A program made the translations under genes and the position numbers. This document shows positions 55,268 through 63,492 of a stretch of 64,000 nt of DNA, piece after piece. This DNA comes from Ferrovum sp. JA12 (lineage in GTDB: Bacteria > Pseudomonadota > Gammaproteobacteria > Burkholderiales > Ferrovaceae): positions 434,001 to 498,000 of the forward strand of contig NZ_LJWX01000002.1 in assembly GCF_001431705.1 (NCBI RefSeq), written 5' to 3'. Numbering within the stretch: position 1 is the first letter of the stretch; each line of letters starts with the position of its first letter. The notes under the pieces were generated by a model that was given only the letters and a program-made list of their open reading frames with translations, was not told the origin of the DNA and ran no database searches.

Positions 55268-55799
55268 GTAGCCATCACAAACGCAGACAGACACGCTGCC
55301 GCCGAAGGACAGTCACCCACGTTTGCAGCAGTATGTAGAACCATCGGTGAGAGCAGTTTTACGACGATTTCCGAGGCTATGAAGTCATGGAGACCGCAAA
55401 AAATATCAGTCGCGCAGCCGATGCGCAAGGCAGTACTCGCAGCAGTTGTCGACAAAGCCAGCGGGCTTTCTGTCGGAATTTAGGACGTTGCTATGGGCAT
55501 AGCAAACAACTGTTTAGCCAGCAAACGCGAAGCCGTGGTGGTTGCGCGAAAGGAAATGGAATAGGCACGCGAGAAGCCATTGAATAAGCAGACCAAGTAG
55601 CCACTGAGCTCGATGCAGCGCGGTCTCAGATCGAGAAGCAGATCGAAGCGCGCAAGCATACCGGGATACAAGCTGATCAGCTTATAATAAAAGCGCGAAG
55701 TGGGCAGGTGGTCTGGCCGCATTGCTGGTACAGGAACGTGTGGCGACAAAGGATGCCGAGGACAAGGCAGAAAAAGCGATTGTCGACGCTCTAAACTAA
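55268..55799 (+). pseudogene. KfrA-like plasmid DNA-binding protein remnant
   Basis: KfrA proteins combine an N-terminal helix-turn-helix domain with a long coiled coil and help regulate and segregate plasmids. The plus strand reads ITNADRHAAAEGQSPTFAAV, RTIGESSFTTISEAMKSWRP, then coiled-coil text (NNCLASKREAVVVARKEME; TELDAARSQIEKQIEARK; VATKDAEDKAEKAIVDALN). It is broken by TAG at 55481-55483 (probably an old Trp codon), TAG at 55562-55564 (probably an old Gln codon), and frame changes near 55590 and 55735. The coiled coil is also far shorter than in intact proteins. A plasmid or conjugative-element origin is inferred. Confidence 0.7.
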
Positions 55800-55931
55800 G
55801 GGGTAATTTGGAGGTTTAGCAGTCCAAGCCCATGGTTGAAAGCAATGGCATGGAATGTTGACTTGAGCTAGGCACCCTCAACGAGCACGGCCATAAATAG
55901 GTGGTTTTGGTGCCAACACGGGTGCCCGGTC

Positions 55932-55959
55932 TTGAGATCGCACCACATTAGTGTAGAAT
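55932..55959 (+). promoter_or_regulatory. Probable promoter of the hsd operon
   Basis: TTGAGA (55932-55937) and TAGAAT (55954-55959) are 16 bp apart, about 60 bp upstream of the hsdM ATG. AGGAAGC precedes that ATG. This is the only reasonable promoter before the operon. Confidence 0.45.
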
Positions 55960-56021
55960 TGTGCCTTTAATTGGGTATCGTGGATGAAGAAAAATATGAA
56001 TAACTCAATAGGAAGCTAACC

Positions 56022-57587
56022 ATGACCAGCTCCCAACAACGCGCCGAACTGCAGCGCCGCATTTGGCAAATCGCCAATGATGTCCGTGGCGCAGTCGACG
56101 GCTGGGATTTCAAGCAATACGTGCTCGGCACGCTGTTCTACCGCTTTATCAGTGAAAACTTCGCCAGTTACATCGAAGGTGGTGATGACAGCATCCACTA
56201 CGCCGAGTTGGCCGATAGCCTCATCACTCCGGACATCAAAGATGACGCCATCAAGACCAAGGGCTATTTCATCTACCCCAGTCAGCTGTTTGCCAAGATG
56301 GCTGCCAGCGCCAATACCAATGAAAGCCTGAATACCGATCTCGCCGCCATCTTTGCCGCCATCGAGTCCTCTGCCAACGGCTACCCCTCTGAACACGACA
56401 TCAAAGGCCTGTTTGCCGACTTCGACACCACCAGCAATCGCCTCGGTAATACCGTTAAAGACAAGAATGCCCGTCTGGCCGCTGTTCTCAAAGGCGTGGC
56501 TGAGCTGAACTTTGCCGATTTCGAAGGTAGCAACATCGACCTCTTCGGGGATGCCTACGAATTTCTCATCTCCAACTACGCCGCCAATGCCGGTAAATCC
56601 GGCGGTGAGTTTTTCACCCCGCAGCATGTTTCGAAGCTGATTGCCCAGCTCGCCATACACAAGCAAACCACCGTCAACAAGATCTTTGACCCGGCCTGTG
56701 GGTCAGGTTCGCTGCTGCTGCAAGCCAAAAAGCACTTTGACGCGCACATCATCGAAGATGGTTTTTTCGGGCAAGAAATCAACCACACCACTTACAACCT
56801 GGCGCGGATGAACATGTTCTTGCACAACATCAATTACGACAAGTTCAACGTCCAGCTCGGCAACACCCTCATTGACCCGTATTTCGGCGACCACAAACCC
56901 TTCGATGCCATCGTCTCCAACCCCCCATACTCGGTGAAGTGGATAGGCAGCGACGATCCCACACTGATCAACGACGAACGCTTTGCCCCAGCGGGTGTAC
57001 TTGCGCCCAAGTCCAAAGCCGACTTTGCCTTCGTGCTGCACGCACTCAGCTACCTCTCAAGCAAGGGCCGCGCCGCCATCGTCTGCTTCCCCGGTATTTT
57101 CTACCGCGGTGGAGCCGAGCAGAAGATTCGCCAATATCTGGTAGATAACAACTATGTGGAAACGGTGATTTCGCTCGCGCCCAACCTGTTTTATGGCACC
57201 ACGATTGCGGTCAATATTCTGGTGCTCTCCAAACACAAAACAGACACCACCACCCAGTTCATCGACGCCAGCGGCCTGTTCAAGAAAGAGACCAATAACA
57301 ACGTGCTGCTGGACGCGCATATCGACCAGATCATGGCGGTGTTCGACAGCAAGGACAATGTGGATCATTTCGCCCAATCGGTGCCATTTGAGAAGGTGGC
57401 CGCCAACGACTACAACCTGTCGGTGAGCAGCTATGTCGAAGCGAAGGACAGCCACGAGGTGGTGGATATTGCAAAGCTCAATGCCGAGCTGAAAACCACC
57501 GTAGCCCGAATCGACAAATTGCGCAAAGACATTGATGCCATCGTCGCCGAGATTGATGGCGTAGATTCAGAGGGAGCGAGCCCATGA
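56022..57587 (+). CDS. hsdM: Type I restriction-modification methyltransferase subunit HsdM
   Basis: The N6-adenine methylase of a type I system. The 521-residue protein has an N-terminal helical domain ([21 protein letters not shown]), then [16 protein letters not shown], the SAM motif [12 protein letters not shown] near residue 225 and the catalytic NPPYSV near 302. Its length equals that of the EcoR124I (type IC) HsdM to within one residue. By eye GC is clearly above that of the genes left of tRNA-Pro. The start is ATG 56022 behind AGGAAGC. Its stop overlaps the fic gene by 4 bp. Confidence 0.97.
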
Positions 57588-58189
57588 TTCTGGAAAACAA
57601 ACTCATCATCACCGACCAAATTGAACTGGCCAAAGCCGAAGAAAGAATCAGCAAGCAAAAAGCCAAGCAGCTTTTCGACTCTGGCGATATAACAAAAGTG
57701 GAAGTCGGCACCTTTGCTGGGCTGAGCTTTATTCATACTTACTTGTTTGAAGATATTTACGCCTTCGCCGGAAAAATACGCGACGTCAATATCGCCAAAG
57801 GCAACTTCCGTTTTGCTCCCCTGATGTACCTGGAAGCATCGTTAAAACATATCGACACCATGCCGCAAAGCATGTTTGATGAGATCGTTGAAAAATATGT
57901 CGAGATGAATGTCGCCCACCCTTTCCGTGAAGGCAATGGTCGCGCCACCCGCATCTGGCTGGATTTGATGCTTAAAAAAGAAATTCAACAGGTGGTGGAT
58001 TGGAACAGGGTCGATAAAGAAGAATACCTCTCGGCCATGCAGCGCAGCGTGGTAAAAGACCTTGAAATCAAAGCACTAATTAAGCAGGCGCTTACCAGTA
58101 AAATTAACGACCGCACCTTGTTCATGAAGGGTATTGATGTCAGCTATTACTACGAAGGCTATAGCGAATTCAAGACGGAGGAGCTGTGA
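57584..58189 (+). CDS. fic: Class III Fic protein (NmFic-like adenylyltransferase)
   Basis: Fic enzymes usually transfer AMP from ATP to a target hydroxyl. The 201-residue protein follows N. meningitidis Fic along its length: [38 protein letters not shown], the active loop [12 protein letters not shown] (residues 112-123, catalytic His 112) and the C-terminal inhibitory helix SYYYEGY (Ser 187, Glu 191). NmFic is known to be held inactive by that Glu and to modify GyrB when released; the target here is only inferred. It is inserted between hsdM and hsdS with 4-bp overlaps on both sides, so it is part of the transcript. Confidence 0.92.
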
Positions 58190-59370
58190 GCACGAGTAAT
58201 ATTAGCTTTATGGAAAAGCTGCTGGATGGCGTTGAGGTTGAGTGGAAACCGCTAGGCGAAGTGCTTGTTCGTACCAAAGGTACAAAGATCACTGCAGGCC
58301 AAATGAAGGGGCTGCATAAAGATGACGGGGTCGTAAAAATATTTGCAGGGGGAAAAACTGTAGCGTTTGTCAACCTTGAAGATATCCCGGCAAAAGATAT
58401 CAATCGCAAGCCTTCAATCATCGTCAAATCTCGTGGCGTGATTGAGTTTGAGTATTACGACAAGCCGTTTTCTCACAAAAATGAAATGTGGTCGTATCAC
58501 TCCAATACTGATCACTTCCACATTAAGTTTTTCTACCATTTTTTGAAGTTGAATGAACCTCACTTTCAGCAACTGGGAAGCAAAATGCAAATGCCGCAAA
58601 TTGCTACACCTGACACTGACAAGTTCATGGTCCCCGTTCCCTGCCCAGAAAACTCAAAAAAATCGCTCGAAATCCAAGCCGAAATCGTCCGCATTCTGGA
58701 CACTTTCACCGAACTGACCGCCGAACTGACCGCCGAACTGACCGCCGAACTGACCGCCCGCAAAAAACAATACAACTACTACCGCGACCAGTTGTTGAGT
58801 TTTGAAGAAGGCGAAGTGGAGTGGAAGGCGCTCGGTAAAGTGATAAAAACTGTAACGGCACCCTCAAAGCTCAAAAGCCAAGCCTATCGCGCAACAGGAA
58901 GACTTCCAATTGTTGATCAGGGTGTCGAATTCATCGCCGGCTATACTGACGAGAATATAACTCCCGTTGAAGCTGGAGAATACGTAATTTTTGGCGATCA
59001 TTCTGAACACATAAAGTATGTAGACTTTCCTTTTGTTCAAGGCGCTGATGGACTAAAAATTCTTAGCCCTATCTCGGCTAATGCCAAGTACATCTACCAT
59101 ACCTTCCTGAACTTTTATACGAAGAAATTGAGCTACAAAAGGCATTGGTCAACTGCGCAACAGACATTAATTCCCATCCCCTGCCCAGAAAACCCACAAA
59201 AATCGCTCGAAATCCAAGCCGAAATCGTCCGAATCCTCGACAAATTCGACGCCCTGACCAACTCCATTACGGAAGGCTTGCCGCGCGAAATTGCTCTGCG
59301 CCAGAAGCAATACGAGTATTACCGCGACTTGCTACTGAGCTTCCCCAAGCCGGAAGAAGTAGCCGCCTGA
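58186..59370 (+). CDS. hsdS: Type I restriction specificity subunit HsdS (IC family)
   Basis: Recognises the DNA target for both HsdM and HsdR. The 394 residues form two similar halves: LLDGVEVEWKPLGEVLV, target-recognition domain 1, PCPENSKKSLEIQAEIVRIL, a spacer of TAEL repeats, KKQYNYYRDQLLSF; then EGEVEWKALGKV, domain 2, PCPENPQKSLEIQAEIVRIL, and a closing EYYRDLLLSF. These conserved blocks match EcoR124I-type (IC) HsdS. The start is GTG 58186, overlapping the fic stop. The spacer contains three TAEL units after FTEL, where EcoR124I has two. See repeats at 58711 and 58641/59181. Confidence 0.95.
   Translation: MSTSNISFMEKLLDGVEVEWKPLGEVLVRTKGTKITAGQMKGLHKDDGVVKIFAGGKTVAFVNLEDIPAKDINRKPSIIVKSRGVIEFEYYDKPFSHKNEMWSYHSNTDHFHIKFFYHFLKLNEPHFQQLGSKMQMPQIATPDTDKFMVPVPCPENSKKSLEIQAEIVRILDTFTELTAELTAELTAELTARKKQYNYYRDQLLSFEEGEVEWKALGKVIKTVTAPSKLKSQAYRATGRLPIVDQGVEFIAGYTDENITPVEAGEYVIFGDHSEHIKYVDFPFVQGADGLKILSPISANAKYIYHTFLNFYTKKLSYKRHWSTAQQTLIPIPCPENPQKSLEIQAEIVRILDKFDALTNSITEGLPREIALRQKQYEYYRDLLLSFPKPEEVAA
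58641..58702 (+). repeat. Direct repeat copy 1 within hsdS
   Basis: A 62-bp block encoding CPENSKKSLEIQAEIVRILD. It differs at five positions from the copy at 59181-59242, with a 34-nt identical core (58658-58691). The copies are offset by exactly 540 bp, a multiple of three. Confidence 0.95.
58711..58758 (+). repeat. Tandem repeat in hsdS: gaactgaccgcc x4
   Basis: Four perfect 12-bp copies encode ELTA x4, seen in the protein as TEL-TAEL-TAEL-TAEL. In the EcoR124 family the number of TAEL units sets the spacing between the two half-sites of the recognition sequence. Confidence 0.97.
59181..59242 (+). repeat. Direct repeat copy 2 within hsdS
   Basis: The second copy of the 62-bp block at 58641, encoding CPENPQKSLEIQAEIVRILD after the second target-recognition domain. 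Recombination between copies would remove 540 bp in frame, including the TAEL repeats and domain 2. Confidence 0.95.
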
Positions 59371-59371
59371 T

Positions 59372-60397
59372 ATGAGTTATCAACCGCCTTTTACCATTAC
59401 CCGCGATATCCTGAATCTGGTAGCGGACATCAGCCAGCAAGTCGGTCGGCTGGATGCCAGTGCGCTGAATGCTTCACCTCAATTACGCAAGCAAAACCGC
59501 ATCAAAACCCTGGTTGGCACTCTGGCGATTGAAGGCAATACGCTCACCGAAGAACAGATCACGGCGATCCTTGACGGTAAGTCCGTGATGGGCAGTGTGC
59601 GTGAACTGGCGGAAGTGAAAGGCGCGATTGCGTCCTATGATGCCCTGCCCACCTGGAAGCCGGACAGTATCGAGGATTTGCTCACCGCGCACGGCTTGAT
59701 GATGTCGGATATTCTGGTCAATGCAGGACGATTTCGTGACAAGGCGGTGGGCATCCAGAAAGGCAAGGTGGTGCATCATGTTGCCCCGCCCGCGCATCAG
59801 GTCTCAGGATTGATGGCCGATTTAACCCACTGGTTAAAACAGACAAAAGATCACCCATTGATCACCAGCAGCGTGTTTCATTACGAGTTTGAGTTTATCC
59901 ACCCCTTCAGTGATGGCAATGGCCGTATGGGGCGCTTGTGGCAAACTCTGATTTTGTCGCAATGGCATCCCTTGTTTTTGTCCTTGCCGCTGGAAAGTGT
60001 GATTAAAGACCACCAACCACTCTACTATCAGGCACTGGAAGAGGCTGACGAAAAAGCCGATAGCACGCCTTTTATTCACTTTATGTTGTCGGTCATTGCC
60101 GAAACCCTGGCACAAAACGCCCCCGTAAACGCCTTTGTAAACGCCTCTGTAAACGCCTCTGTAAACGCCTCTGTAAATGTTCCGGCAAATGCCTTAGTTT
60201 CAGTGGCAGGGCTTAAAACACCTGAGGCTATTTTGGCATTGCTCGCGGCGAATCCTTTGCTGACCCGCAAGCAACTGGCTAACGCCATCGGTAAAGACAT
60301 ACGCACGATTGGCCGAGCACTGGCCAAGCTGCAACAAGCGGGAAAAATCAAACGCATCGGTTCTGATAAAACCGGCCATTGGATGGTTCAACCATGA
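59372..60397 (+). CDS. Class II Fic protein with C-terminal winged helix
   Basis: A second, unrelated-looking Fic protein of 341 residues. An N-terminal inhibitory motif TLAIEGN (Thr 50, Glu 54, Gly 55) makes it class II; the active loop is [12 protein letters not shown] (residues 177-188). After a linker containing VNAS repeats (about 252-270) comes a winged-helix-like domain: [50 protein letters not shown]. Such Fic-HTH proteins may bind DNA or regulate their own operon. The start ATG lies 1 bp after the hsdS stop, and its stop overlaps hsdR by 4 bp. Confidence 0.92.
60125..60172 (+). repeat. Tandem repeat in second fic gene: gtaaacgcctct x4
   Basis: Four 12-bp units (the first with one change, the next three identical), followed by a decayed fifth at 60173. 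They encode a VNAS/VNAF linker between the Fic domain and the C-terminal domain. Copy-number change would alter linker length without shifting frame. Confidence 0.95.
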
Positions 60398-63300
60398 CGG
60401 ACTACAAAACCATTGCTGAATCGAAAAACTTCATCGTTCTGGACAAATATGCCCCGGAATGGAAGGTCGCGGAAGGCTACCAGAGCGAGAGCAAGCTGGA
60501 GCGTGAGTTCATCCAAGATCTGGTCAATCAGGGTTATGAATACCTACCCGACCTGAATGCGCCAGAGGCCTTGCTGGCCAATGTGCGCGTGCAGCTGCAA
60601 ACACTCAATAACGTGCAGTTTGCGCATGGCGAATGGCTGCGCTTTGTCGAGACCTGGCTGGACAAACCCAGTGATGGCATCGTCGAGAAAACCCGCAAGA
60701 TTCACGACGATTACATTCATGACTTTGTGTTCGACGACGGGCGCATCCAGAACATCTACCTGCTGGAGAAGAAAAACATCGCCCGCAACAAGGTGCAGGT
60801 GATCAAGCAGTTTGAGCAGACCGGCAGCCATGCCAACCGTTATGACGTGACGATTCTGGTCAACGGCCTGCCGCTGGTTCAAGTGGAGCTAAAAAAGCGT
60901 GGCGTCGCTATTCGGGAGGCCTTCAATCAGGTGCACCGTTACAGCAAGGAAAGCTTCAACAGCGAGCATTCCTTGTTCAAGTATTTGCAGCTGTTCGTGA
61001 TCTCCAACGGCACCGATAGCCGTTACTTTGCCAACACCACTAGGCGTGACAAAAATAGCTTTGACTTCACCATGAACTGGGCGAAGGCGGATAATAGCCT
61101 GATCAAGGACCTGAAGGACTTTACCGCCACCTTCTTCCAGAAGAATACCCTGCTCAATGTGCTGATGCATTATTCGGTGTTTGATGTCAGCGATACTTTG
61201 CTGGTGATGCGCCCCTACCAGATTGCCGCCACGGAACGCATTCTGTGGAAGGTTAACAGCGCGTATCAGGCAAAAAACTGGAGCAATCTTGAAGGTGGCG
61301 GTTTCATCTGGCACACCACCGGCTCGGGAAAGACCCTCACCAGTTTCAAGGCGGCGCGTCTCGCCACCGAGCTGGATTTCATCGACAAGGTGTTCTTCGT
61401 GGTGGACCGCAAGGATCTGGACTACCAGACCATGAAGGAGTACCAGCGCTTTTCGCCAGACAGCGTGAATGGCTCTGACAGCACCGCTGGCCTGAAGCGT
61501 AACCTGGACAAGGACGATAACAAGATCGTCGTCACCACCATCCAGAAGCTCAACAACCTGATGAAAAGCGAAGCTGACTTGCCCATCTACGGCAAGCAGG
61601 TCGTGTTCATTTTTGATGAATGCCACCGCAGCCATTTCGGTGAAGCACAGAAGAACCTGAAGAAGAAGTTTAAGAAGTTCTATCAGTTTGGCTTTACCGG
61701 CACGCCGATCTTCCCCGAGAACGCGCTGGGCGCGGAAACCACCGCCAGCGTGTTTGGCCGTGAGCTGCATTCTTACGTCATCACCGATGCGATACGAGAT
61801 GAGAAGGTGCTCAAGTTCAAGGTGGACTACAACGATGTGCGCCCGCATTTCAAAGCCGTTGAAACTGAGCAGGACGAGAAAAAGCTCAGTGCCGCAGAAA
61901 ACAAGCAGGCCTTGCTTCACCCCGACCGCATTCGTGAGATCACGCAGTACATCCTGAATAACTTCAGACAAAAGACCCATCGCCTACAACCGGGCAATAA
62001 GGGCTTCAACGCCATGTTTGCGGTCAGTAGCGTAGATGCTGCGAAGCTGTACTACGAATCGTTCCGTGAGCTACAGAAGGGCAGTGACAAGTCGCTGAGG
62101 GTGGCCACCATCTTCTCGTTTGCGGCCAACGAAGAGCAGGATGCTGTAGGTGACATTCAGGACGAAAGTTTTGATGTGTCCGCCATGAACAGCAGCGCTA
62201 AGGAGTTTTTGAGCGCAGCCATCGCCGACTACAACGCGCTGTTCAAGACCAACTTCAGTGTAGACAGCAACGGGTTTCAGAACTACTACCGGGACCTGGC
62301 CAAGCAGGTGAAGGCCAAGGAAATCGATCTGCTCATCGTGGTGGGCATGTTCCTGACCGGCTTTGATGCCCCCACGCTGAACACCTTGTTTGTCGATAAA
62401 AATCTGCGCTTTCATGGGTTGATGCAGGCTTACTCTCGCACCAACCGCATTTTTGGCGCCACCAAAACCTTCGGCAATATTGTCACCTTCCGTGACCTCG
62501 AGCAGGCGACCATCGACGCTATCACCCTGTTTGGCGACAAGAACACCAAGAACGTGGTGTTGGAGAAGAGCTACAAAGAATACATGGAAGGCTTCACCGA
62601 TGCGACCACCGGCGAGGCGCGGCGTGGCTTTGTAGAAGTGGTGAAGGAGCTGGAGCAGCGTTTTCCTGATCCCGCTGCCATTGAAAAAGAGGCGGATAAA
62701 AAAGCCTTTGCGAAACTGTTTGGCGAATATTTGCGCGTTGAGAACGTGCTGCAGAACTATGACGAGTTCGCCAGCTTGAAGGATATGCAAAATGTCGACA
62801 TGACCGACCCAGCGGCAGTGGAGGCGTACAAGGCCAAGCACTATTTGAGCGATGACGATCTAATCGCACTGCAATCCATCACGCTACCTGCTGAGCGAAA
62901 AATCCAGGATTACCGATCCACTTACAACGATGTTCGCGACTGGCAGCGTCGAGAAAAATCTTCGGATCAGAAGGACAAGTCAACCATCGATTGGGATGAC
63001 GTGGTCTTCGAGGTGGACTTGCTCAAGTCGCAGGAAATCAATCTGGATTACATCTTGGAATTGATCTTCGAGCACAACAAGAAGAGCAAGAGCAAATCGG
63101 AGCTGGTGGATGAAGTGCGCCGGGTTATTCGCGCCAGCTTGGGCAACCGCGCCAAAGAAAGCCTGCTGGTTGACTTCATCAACCAGACCGATCTAGACCA
63201 GATTGGTGACAAGGCCAGCGTAATCGACGCTTTCTTCACTTTTGCCCAAGCGGAGCAGCAGCGTGAAGCGCAAGAGCTGATCAGCGCCGAAAATCTGAAT

Positions 63301-63492
63301 GCCGAAGCGGCCAGACGCTATATCACCACCTCGCTCAAGCGGGAATTTGCCAGTGACAGCGGCACAGAGCTCAATGCTGTGCTGCCCAAGATGAGCCCGT
63401 TAAACCCGCAGTACCTGGCCAAAAAGCAAAGCGTGTTCCAGAAGATCGCGGCTTTTGTTGAAAAGTTCAAAGGCGTGGGCGGGCAGGTCTGA
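60394..63492 (+). CDS. hsdR: Type I restriction endonuclease motor subunit HsdR
   Basis: ATP-driven translocase and nuclease of the complex. Starting at ATG 60394 (ATGA overlap with the fic stop) it has 1032 residues, near EcoR124I HsdR (1038). The nuclease site is [20 protein letters not shown] (about 148-167, Asp...Glu-x-Lys). The SF2 motor shows TGSGKT near 309, [11 protein letters not shown] near 406, GFTGTPIF near 430 and [12 protein letters not shown] near 652, and the helical C-terminal part that binds HsdM follows. All key residues look intact, so restriction should be active. Confidence 0.97.

Follow-up and report, generated by a model that had tools for sequence, protein, structure and literature searches.

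Iterons, the direct repeats of replication origins, are read by winged-helix Rep proteins. Binding sites may also lie within the gene of the protein that binds them, as in C.Kpn2I, which has a site inside its own gene and, when bound there, stalls RNA polymerase; its authors describe this autoregulation as promoter-independent and suited to horizontal transfer (PMC6237814). Among Fic proteins, CccR of Yersinia, which combines Fic and helix-turn-helix (HTH) domains, represses its own gene through promoter palindromes (PMC9755527). In human, the rG4/RGG coding–binding relation provides an RNA-level case in which a coding repeat is the target of its own product (PMC11789052). In-gene operators as such are already known, and single in-gene operators are the closest precedent for the feature described here.

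Here we describe an array of 12-bp direct repeats within a fic gene of Ferrovum sp. JA12, identified in a 64,000-nucleotide stretch of its genome (hereafter referred to as the window), together with related arrays in other genes. Iterons and this array are both direct repeats with a winged helix as reader, here a predicted one, but iterons are longer and lie in origins, whereas the 12-bp repeats are coding; moreover, iterons need a Rep initiator, and a domain search of the Ferrovum Fic protein found no Rep domain. The locus resembles that of C.Kpn2I in having an in-gene site for its own product, here a candidate site, and a link to restriction–modification. However, C.Kpn2I is described as XRE-related with one or two inverted-repeat motifs at the gene start, whereas the Ferrovum protein has neither an XRE/C-protein domain nor an inverted-repeat site: an enzyme bears an HTH_24 winged HTH (wHTH) domain, and the linker preceding that domain is encoded by direct 12-bp repeats, which number two to seven across homologues. 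The polymerase roadblock is demonstrated for C.Kpn2I and inferred for the Ferrovum protein (PMC6237814). Like CccR, the latter has a Fic domain and a C-terminal DNA-binding domain and may be negatively autoregulated, but in place of the promoter palindromes reported for CccR it has direct repeats within the gene, with none enriched in the promoter (PMC9755527). It also shares with CbFic2 of Coxiella burnetii a class II Fic domain followed by a C-terminal wHTH, although CbFic2 is a DUF4172-type Fic protein and was studied, in the account consulted, with random DNA (PMC10628234). In the rG4/RGG case, as reported, the peptide that the repeat encodes is also the motif that binds, whereas here the predicted reader is a separate domain (PMC11789052). 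The open-access literature, outside which most subscription papers and preprints lie, yielded no account of Fic or AlbA_2 genes with arrays of internal sites. What would be new is a linker made of an in-frame array that precedes its predicted reading domain, recurs in two enzyme families and co-evolves with the recognition helix.

A phased array in the Ferrovum fic gene

The wHTH fic gene lies in an operon with the order hsdM, NmFic-like fic, hsdS, wHTH fic and hsdR, in which the gene ends overlap or abut (Table 1). No wHTH was found in the second, NmFic-like fic gene. The promoter-like site upstream of hsdM is the sole one on the plus strand in 55600-60600, a region in which both strands together hold three such sites against 4.3 by chance, and thus no excess. 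A search of 150 genomes, its own included, found the wHTH fic gene at E <= 1e-40 in its own genome alone, and blastn searches for E. coli copies, for which the window gene and homologues from Enterobacter and Klebsiella served as queries, gave no matches. Orthologues of about 76% identity occupy hsdM-hsdS-fic-hsdR operons on Shewanella, Vibrio and Salinivibrio plasmids, and Azotobacter plasmids (L247, L248) carry fic-hsdS-fic-hsdR, with two fic genes flanking hsdS. The hsd–fic operon looks like a mobile restriction operon. Outside the window, a weak Fic-like match (L003, G000:C2:559359-559601, minus strand) with an E value of 7.5e-4 falls within a giant gene, an open frame of 10937 codons in a 2.0 Mb genome.

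Table 1 Features of the hsd–fic operon in the window
Feature	Position	Strand	Remarks
Promoter-like site	55932..55959	+	consensus match only; upstream of hsdM
hsdM	56022..57587	+	first gene of the operon
Second fic gene, NmFic-like	57584..58189	+	between hsdM and hsdS; NF046029, 311 bits
hsdS, type I specificity subunit	58186..59370	+	directly upstream of wHTH fic
12-bp array in hsdS, TAEL repeats	58709..58758	+	unrelated sequence; outside the proposed mechanism
fic gene	59372..60397	+	341 aa; class II Fic protein (by motifs) with C-terminal wHTH
Fic domain, residues 99-195	59666..59956	+	
Phased 12-bp unit array, n=7, in frame	60115..60198	+	consensus AAACGCCTCTGT; candidate wHTH binding-site array
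Mismatched copy GTAAACGCCTTT	60125	+	encodes VNAF
Exact copies GTAAACGCCTCT	60137, 60149, 60161	+	encode VNAS
Winged helix domain, residues 283-339	60218..60388	+	HTH_24 match at 285-327
Recognition helix, residues 310-322	60299..60337	+	model columns 34-42 = K308 to A316
hsdR	60394..63492	+	directly downstream; start codon overlaps fic stop codon

The encoded protein, whose Fic domain match scores 75 bits, has the Fic motif HPFx(D/E)GNGRxxR, the core of which is invariant in 50 aligned homologues. Upstream of the Fic domain, residues 50-56 form an inhibitory motif, TLAIEGN, with E54 invariant in 50/50; by the usual definition, this motif places the protein among the class II Fic proteins. A published example of the class II inhibitory motif is TSAIEG (PMC10628234). 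An AlphaFold2 model built from an alignment of 50 sequences reproduced both domains well, whereas residues 252-275 had pLDDT values below 50, and the linker between the Fic domain and the wHTH is thus predicted to be disordered. The nearest solved structure is that of Dde_2494, a Fic family protein of Desulfovibrio desulfuricans (PDB 4RGL), with 41% identity over the Fic and C-terminal regions.

An earlier note on this DNA had described a fourfold 12-bp repeat encoding VNAS at 60125-60172, in the linker of a class II Fic protein. We confirmed this repeat as four in-frame copies, three of them exact (GTAAACGCCTCT) and one with a single mismatch (GTAAACGCCTTT), lying exactly within the inter-domain linker of the gene that adjoins hsdS. 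The copy number of four holds for that interval but is an undercount of the array: with the unit defined as an AAAnGnnnn core plus a 3-nt spacer, phased AAAnG cores start at 60115, 60127, 60139, 60151, 60163, 60175 and 60187, giving seven units. Tandem Repeats Finder delimited an array at 60115-60177 (5.2 copies, score 105) that encodes the inter-domain residues 248-269; the only other array in the window scoring above 44 is the hsdS repeat at 58709-58758 (score 100). Allowing up to two mismatches, the unit has eight matches in the window, four of which are the array copies, against 3.79 expected by chance, so the excess lies in the tandem arrangement and not in the single unit. The earlier note had also drawn a parallel with the hsdS repeat. 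The two are indeed independent in sequence, but their equal copy number means little given seven phased units, and the TAEL repeat lies in HsdS with no wHTH behind it; the likeness looks coincidental. The TAEL repeat sits in the HsdS spacer and resembles the spacer of EcoR124-type enzymes.

The DNA is conserved while the peptide changes

To compare the linker among relatives, we collected 81 Fic homologues, of which six were dropped because they had no such region and 75 were scored for period. At the DNA level, 66 of the 75 scored best with a period of 12 and the other nine with 24; at the protein level, 73 scored best with a period of 4 or 8 (p<0.01 against shuffles in 49). This preference was absent from a control stretch taken from these proteins. 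The encoded tetrapeptides are diverse (VNAP, VNDG, KTPV, SNQK, KVTV, VPKN, NEPI, MSVE, MSEE and TPQV), but the units become alike when sorted as DNA and rotated, and share the core AAAnGnnnn, with A at positions 1-3 in 70, 76 and 73 of 78 proteins and G at position 5 in 73/78. One and the same DNA is read in different frames: AAATGTCGG gives NVG in some genes and MS(V/E/G) in others, and in the 31 proteins with glutamate at column 40 of the wHTH model (Glu40) the codon phases of the unit are 15, 15 and 1. Cysteine is absent and arginine nearly so from the peptides of the frames in use; the open frames not in use would encode 11.6% cysteine and 14% arginine. This composition fits a linker whose sole requirement is to do no harm, the DNA core being accommodated by the choice of frame and spacer triplet.

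These comparisons bear on the suggestion of the earlier note that the geometry between the Fic and DNA-binding domains is tuned by an in-frame, length-variable site, and on the reading of the repeat as a slippage-prone microsatellite whose DNA sequence is incidental. Length variation is real: homologues have 2 to 7 phased sites, and the linker measures 84 or 108 nt in orthologues whose wHTH-coding DNA is 92-97% identical, the copy number of the in-frame unit thus varying between species and between orthologues. This variation and the predicted disorder of the linker favour a length-tunable linker. However, slippage alone would allow periods of 9, 15 or 18, whereas 12 is near universal; the tetrapeptide changes completely, while AAAnGnnnn persists at a 12-bp period across frames; and, as described below, the unit tracks exposed residues of the recognition helix in an association of which synonymous recoding removes much. 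Linker length does not emerge as the conserved feature, and tuned geometry found no direct support, the DNA repeat covarying instead with the recognition helix of its own gene. Conservation of the DNA but not of the peptide led us to reject linker geometry as the chief explanation, and we consider it very improbable.

Covariation with the recognition helix

The winged helices were aligned to a profile derived from the Fic proteins and compared with the units, unit similarity being taken as the best of 12 rotations. After removal of 17/111 wHTH proteins below the array score threshold (at least 13) and 14/94 near-duplicates, the statistics set comprised 80 proteins (64 Fic and 16 other) with less than 85% mutual wHTH identity. 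Ten of the 16 non-Fic proteins were scanned for domains, which revealed SLFN_AlbA_2 in nine and HATPase_c_4 in all ten. Unit similarity correlated with recognition-helix identity (r=0.51, 80 proteins), also when the rest of the domain was given (partial r 0.47); the sample behind the covariation analyses, 78 to 80 proteins, is modest. For pairs below 45% wHTH identity, r was 0.35 for the recognition helix and -0.01 for the rest of the domain, and for the 1024 Fic × non-Fic pairs, whose N-terminal domains are unrelated, 0.51 for the helix and -0.02 for the remainder of the wHTH. By column, the signal is strongest in the recognition helix, at columns 34, 37, 38, 40 (z=12), 41 and 42, which correspond to K308, R311, T312, G314, R315 and A316 in the Ferrovum protein; column 17 also reached z=4.9, which is unexplained.

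Several controls were applied to this association. Synonymous recoding with each gene's own codon usage reduced r from 0.512 to 0.288, and from 0.508 to 0.224 across families, with 0/300 replicates reaching the observed values (maxima 0.339 and 0.300). Pairs sharing no unit-peptide residue in any rotation still gave r=0.38 (p=0.0005, permutation). Out-of-frame rotations alone gave only a weak correlation (r=0.06 to 0.09), which counts against the binding-site reading. The reverse-complement control gave r -0.10. This sense-only similarity would suit a protein that binds its own mRNA at the repeats and so regulates its translation, but sense orientation is also expected from inheritance as a cassette, the covariation follows the recognition-helix positions of the wHTH fold, and 12 bp is close to one turn of the DNA helix. 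The wHTH fold usually reads the DNA major groove, and we give mRNA binding little credence relative to binding of DNA.

At the level of single residues and bases (78 proteins; L169 and L174 were left out, as the array called in each was not the linker repeat), columns 41 and 38 associate with unit position 4, columns 34, 35 and 42 with position 6, column 37 with positions 7-8 and column 40 with positions 8-9. GG at positions 8-9 occurs in 29/31 proteins with Glu40, in two main frames, and in 1/47 with other residues (Fisher p 6e-18, uncorrected for ancestry). In the uncorrected table, several columns outside the helix also have high mutual information (for example 9, 25 and 59; z up to 13), which we read as shared ancestry because the residue-base test carries no ancestry correction.

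Shared ancestry could in principle account for the entire association, if array and wHTH, which are adjacent and evidently form one block in Fic and AlbA_2 genes, were simply inherited together; the high non-helix columns fit this explanation. However, the rest of the wHTH is unassociated in low-identity and cross-family pairs. Moreover, on a tree of the Fic domain only (59 proteins, 3/62 having been left out as too short), Glu40 and GG each switch seven times, with a mismatch in 0/59. A switch is also seen between two related AlbA_2 proteins, L116 and L192, which are 68% identical: their helices read EKTAKRD and SRTAERD and their units TGTCCC and TGTCGG, a change of K to E in the helix alongside CCC to CGG in the unit. 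Finally, where Fic and AlbA_2 genes are neighbours (L021, L045 and L084/L192), each array fits the helix of its own gene; at another such locus, L086, the fit is weak, and its AlbA_2 array, itself weak (score 7), was left out of the statistics. Joint inheritance alone is thus a highly unlikely source of the association. Taken together, the helix covariation, the recoding controls and the Fic tree indicate that the DNA of the unit is not incidental to function.

Forecast on new genomes

The rule for column 40 was written down before new genomes were examined. Samples centred on Campylobacterales-type and Treponema genomes yielded 29 loci with 21 wHTH proteins, 17 of them scorable. The rule was right in 13/17, and in 12/16 among proteins less than 85% identical to any earlier domain, whereas shuffled assignments gave a mean of 5.8 and a maximum of 12 in 2000 shuffles. 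All four misses belong to the SG[IV]KK helix class, whose earlier units already read AC, and are therefore attributable to a written rule that was too coarse. The pairing of Glu with GG held in 3/3 scored proteins, or 4/4 including one below the score cut.

Occurrence of arrays and cores

The array accompanies the winged helix: in Fic proteins that end before it (L068, L079, L096, L241 and L242), 0/5 examined carry an array. L002, the other Fic–wHTH protein of the Ferrovum genome, belongs to another subfamily and has no array; possession of a DNA-binding domain by a Fic protein thus does not in general entail the feature. Elsewhere in the loci the core is not enriched (10 occurrences against 5.5 expected, 7/10 being array extensions), nor is it enriched upstream of the genes, in their own promoters (10 against 7.7). 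Ordinary promoter autoregulation is thus not indicated, and we rejected promoter operators of the ordinary kind.

A pattern search of 299 genomes gave two matches, each of which has a C-terminus of AlbA_2 type in which column 40 is Glu. In viral contigs, two-copy patterns had a wHTH in 2/21, 2/33 and 0/18 loci, many of them of low complexity, and three-copy patterns gave nine loci, few with a wHTH. Since most two-copy viral matches lie outside wHTH genes, the AAAnGnnnn motif is not exclusive to such genes. Where a viral match did have a wHTH, E was paired with CGG (2/2 loci) and K with CCC (2/2 loci). The viral contigs L184 and L190/L191 hold arrays of AAATGTCGGAGA and AAAGTAACCTAA with no reading frame leading to a wHTH; these are possibly free-standing sites, remnants or chance occurrences.

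Other array forms were also encountered. A second winged-helix subfamily, with FRKNYL, FRERYL and VRENYL helices, lies behind 12-bp arrays with other units (SDQV, DPVT and TPQV) in Fic genes and one AlbA_2 gene (L028, L034, L041, L064, L080 and L153). The AlbA_2 gene L114 has a very long 12-bp array from residue 411 (period score 195; SRLE/QPES units), against about three copies in the similar gene L113, and the AlbA_2-type L162 has a higher-order 30-bp repeat made of AAATGACCC units. The AlbA_2 gene L166, with the helix KRHIERV, has mixed 9- and 12-bp spacing (VGN DVGN), which suggests that array spacing can relax.

Discussion

Computation establishes the array, the DNA-level constraint on it and its covariation with the recognition helix. 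From these sequence relations we consider it highly probable that the array provides binding sites for the winged helix of the protein encoded by the same gene. The A-tract of each core would presumably lie under the wing, with positions 4-9 read by the recognition helix. A spacing of 12 bp keeps the reading frame, being divisible by three, comes close to a turn of the DNA helix and would leave room for a 9-bp core, and reading frame and spacer trinucleotide may vary so that the linker peptide stays harmless and disordered. Array and wHTH would together form a self-recognizing cassette, in which a wHTH carries its own target array as an in-frame linker, the two acting as a single unit of inheritance, transfer and co-evolution, and which is mounted on unrelated enzymes, Fic and SLFN_AlbA_2, in several phyla. 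We regard this cassette reading, taken as a whole, as probable.

What the bound array does is a separate matter. Its likeliest use, by analogy with C.Kpn2I, may be that the protein binds its own gene and blocks the elongating RNA polymerase, giving promoter-independent negative autoregulation; we put this forward tentatively, as having not quite an even chance. In the Ferrovum operon, such a roadblock would stand about 200-280 bp ahead of hsdR and restrict HsdR as well as Fic, although a damping effect on hsdR seems rather unlikely. Control of a following gene cannot be what arrays are for in general, since 31 of the 70 evaluable genes lack a close co-directional neighbour downstream.

The main rival retains self-binding but recasts the array as an enzyme switch, a self-DNA sensor or latch: the self-bound array would assemble or dimerize the enzyme and set its AMPylation/deAMPylation state, leaving transcription aside. 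It draws on the proposal that CbFic2 passes from AMPylation to deAMPylation on DNA binding (PMC10628234), on the lack of site enrichment in promoters and on the presence of arrays regardless of a close following gene. However, the CbFic2 experiments, as described, used random DNA (PMC10628234), and the cassette is also found in AlbA_2 proteins, whose N-terminal domain is unrelated. We regard such a switch as possible but doubtful.

If the cassette reading is true, each gene records a natural pair of DNA-binding domain and site, and the recognition code could be read from sequence: Glu at column 40 would specify GG and the Lys of TIKR helices CC, with columns 38 and 41 specifying position 4. 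The varied linker tetrapeptides of Fic and AlbA_2 proteins would then share one cause, the peptide being a by-product of a DNA function. The genes would form a large natural collection of winged helices and their sites, found without experiment and useful for decoding DNA recognition. Widespread toxin-like enzymes would control or tether themselves through sites in their own coding sequences, and regulation that needs no host promoter would be well matched to genes passed from one species to another, those of restriction operons among them.
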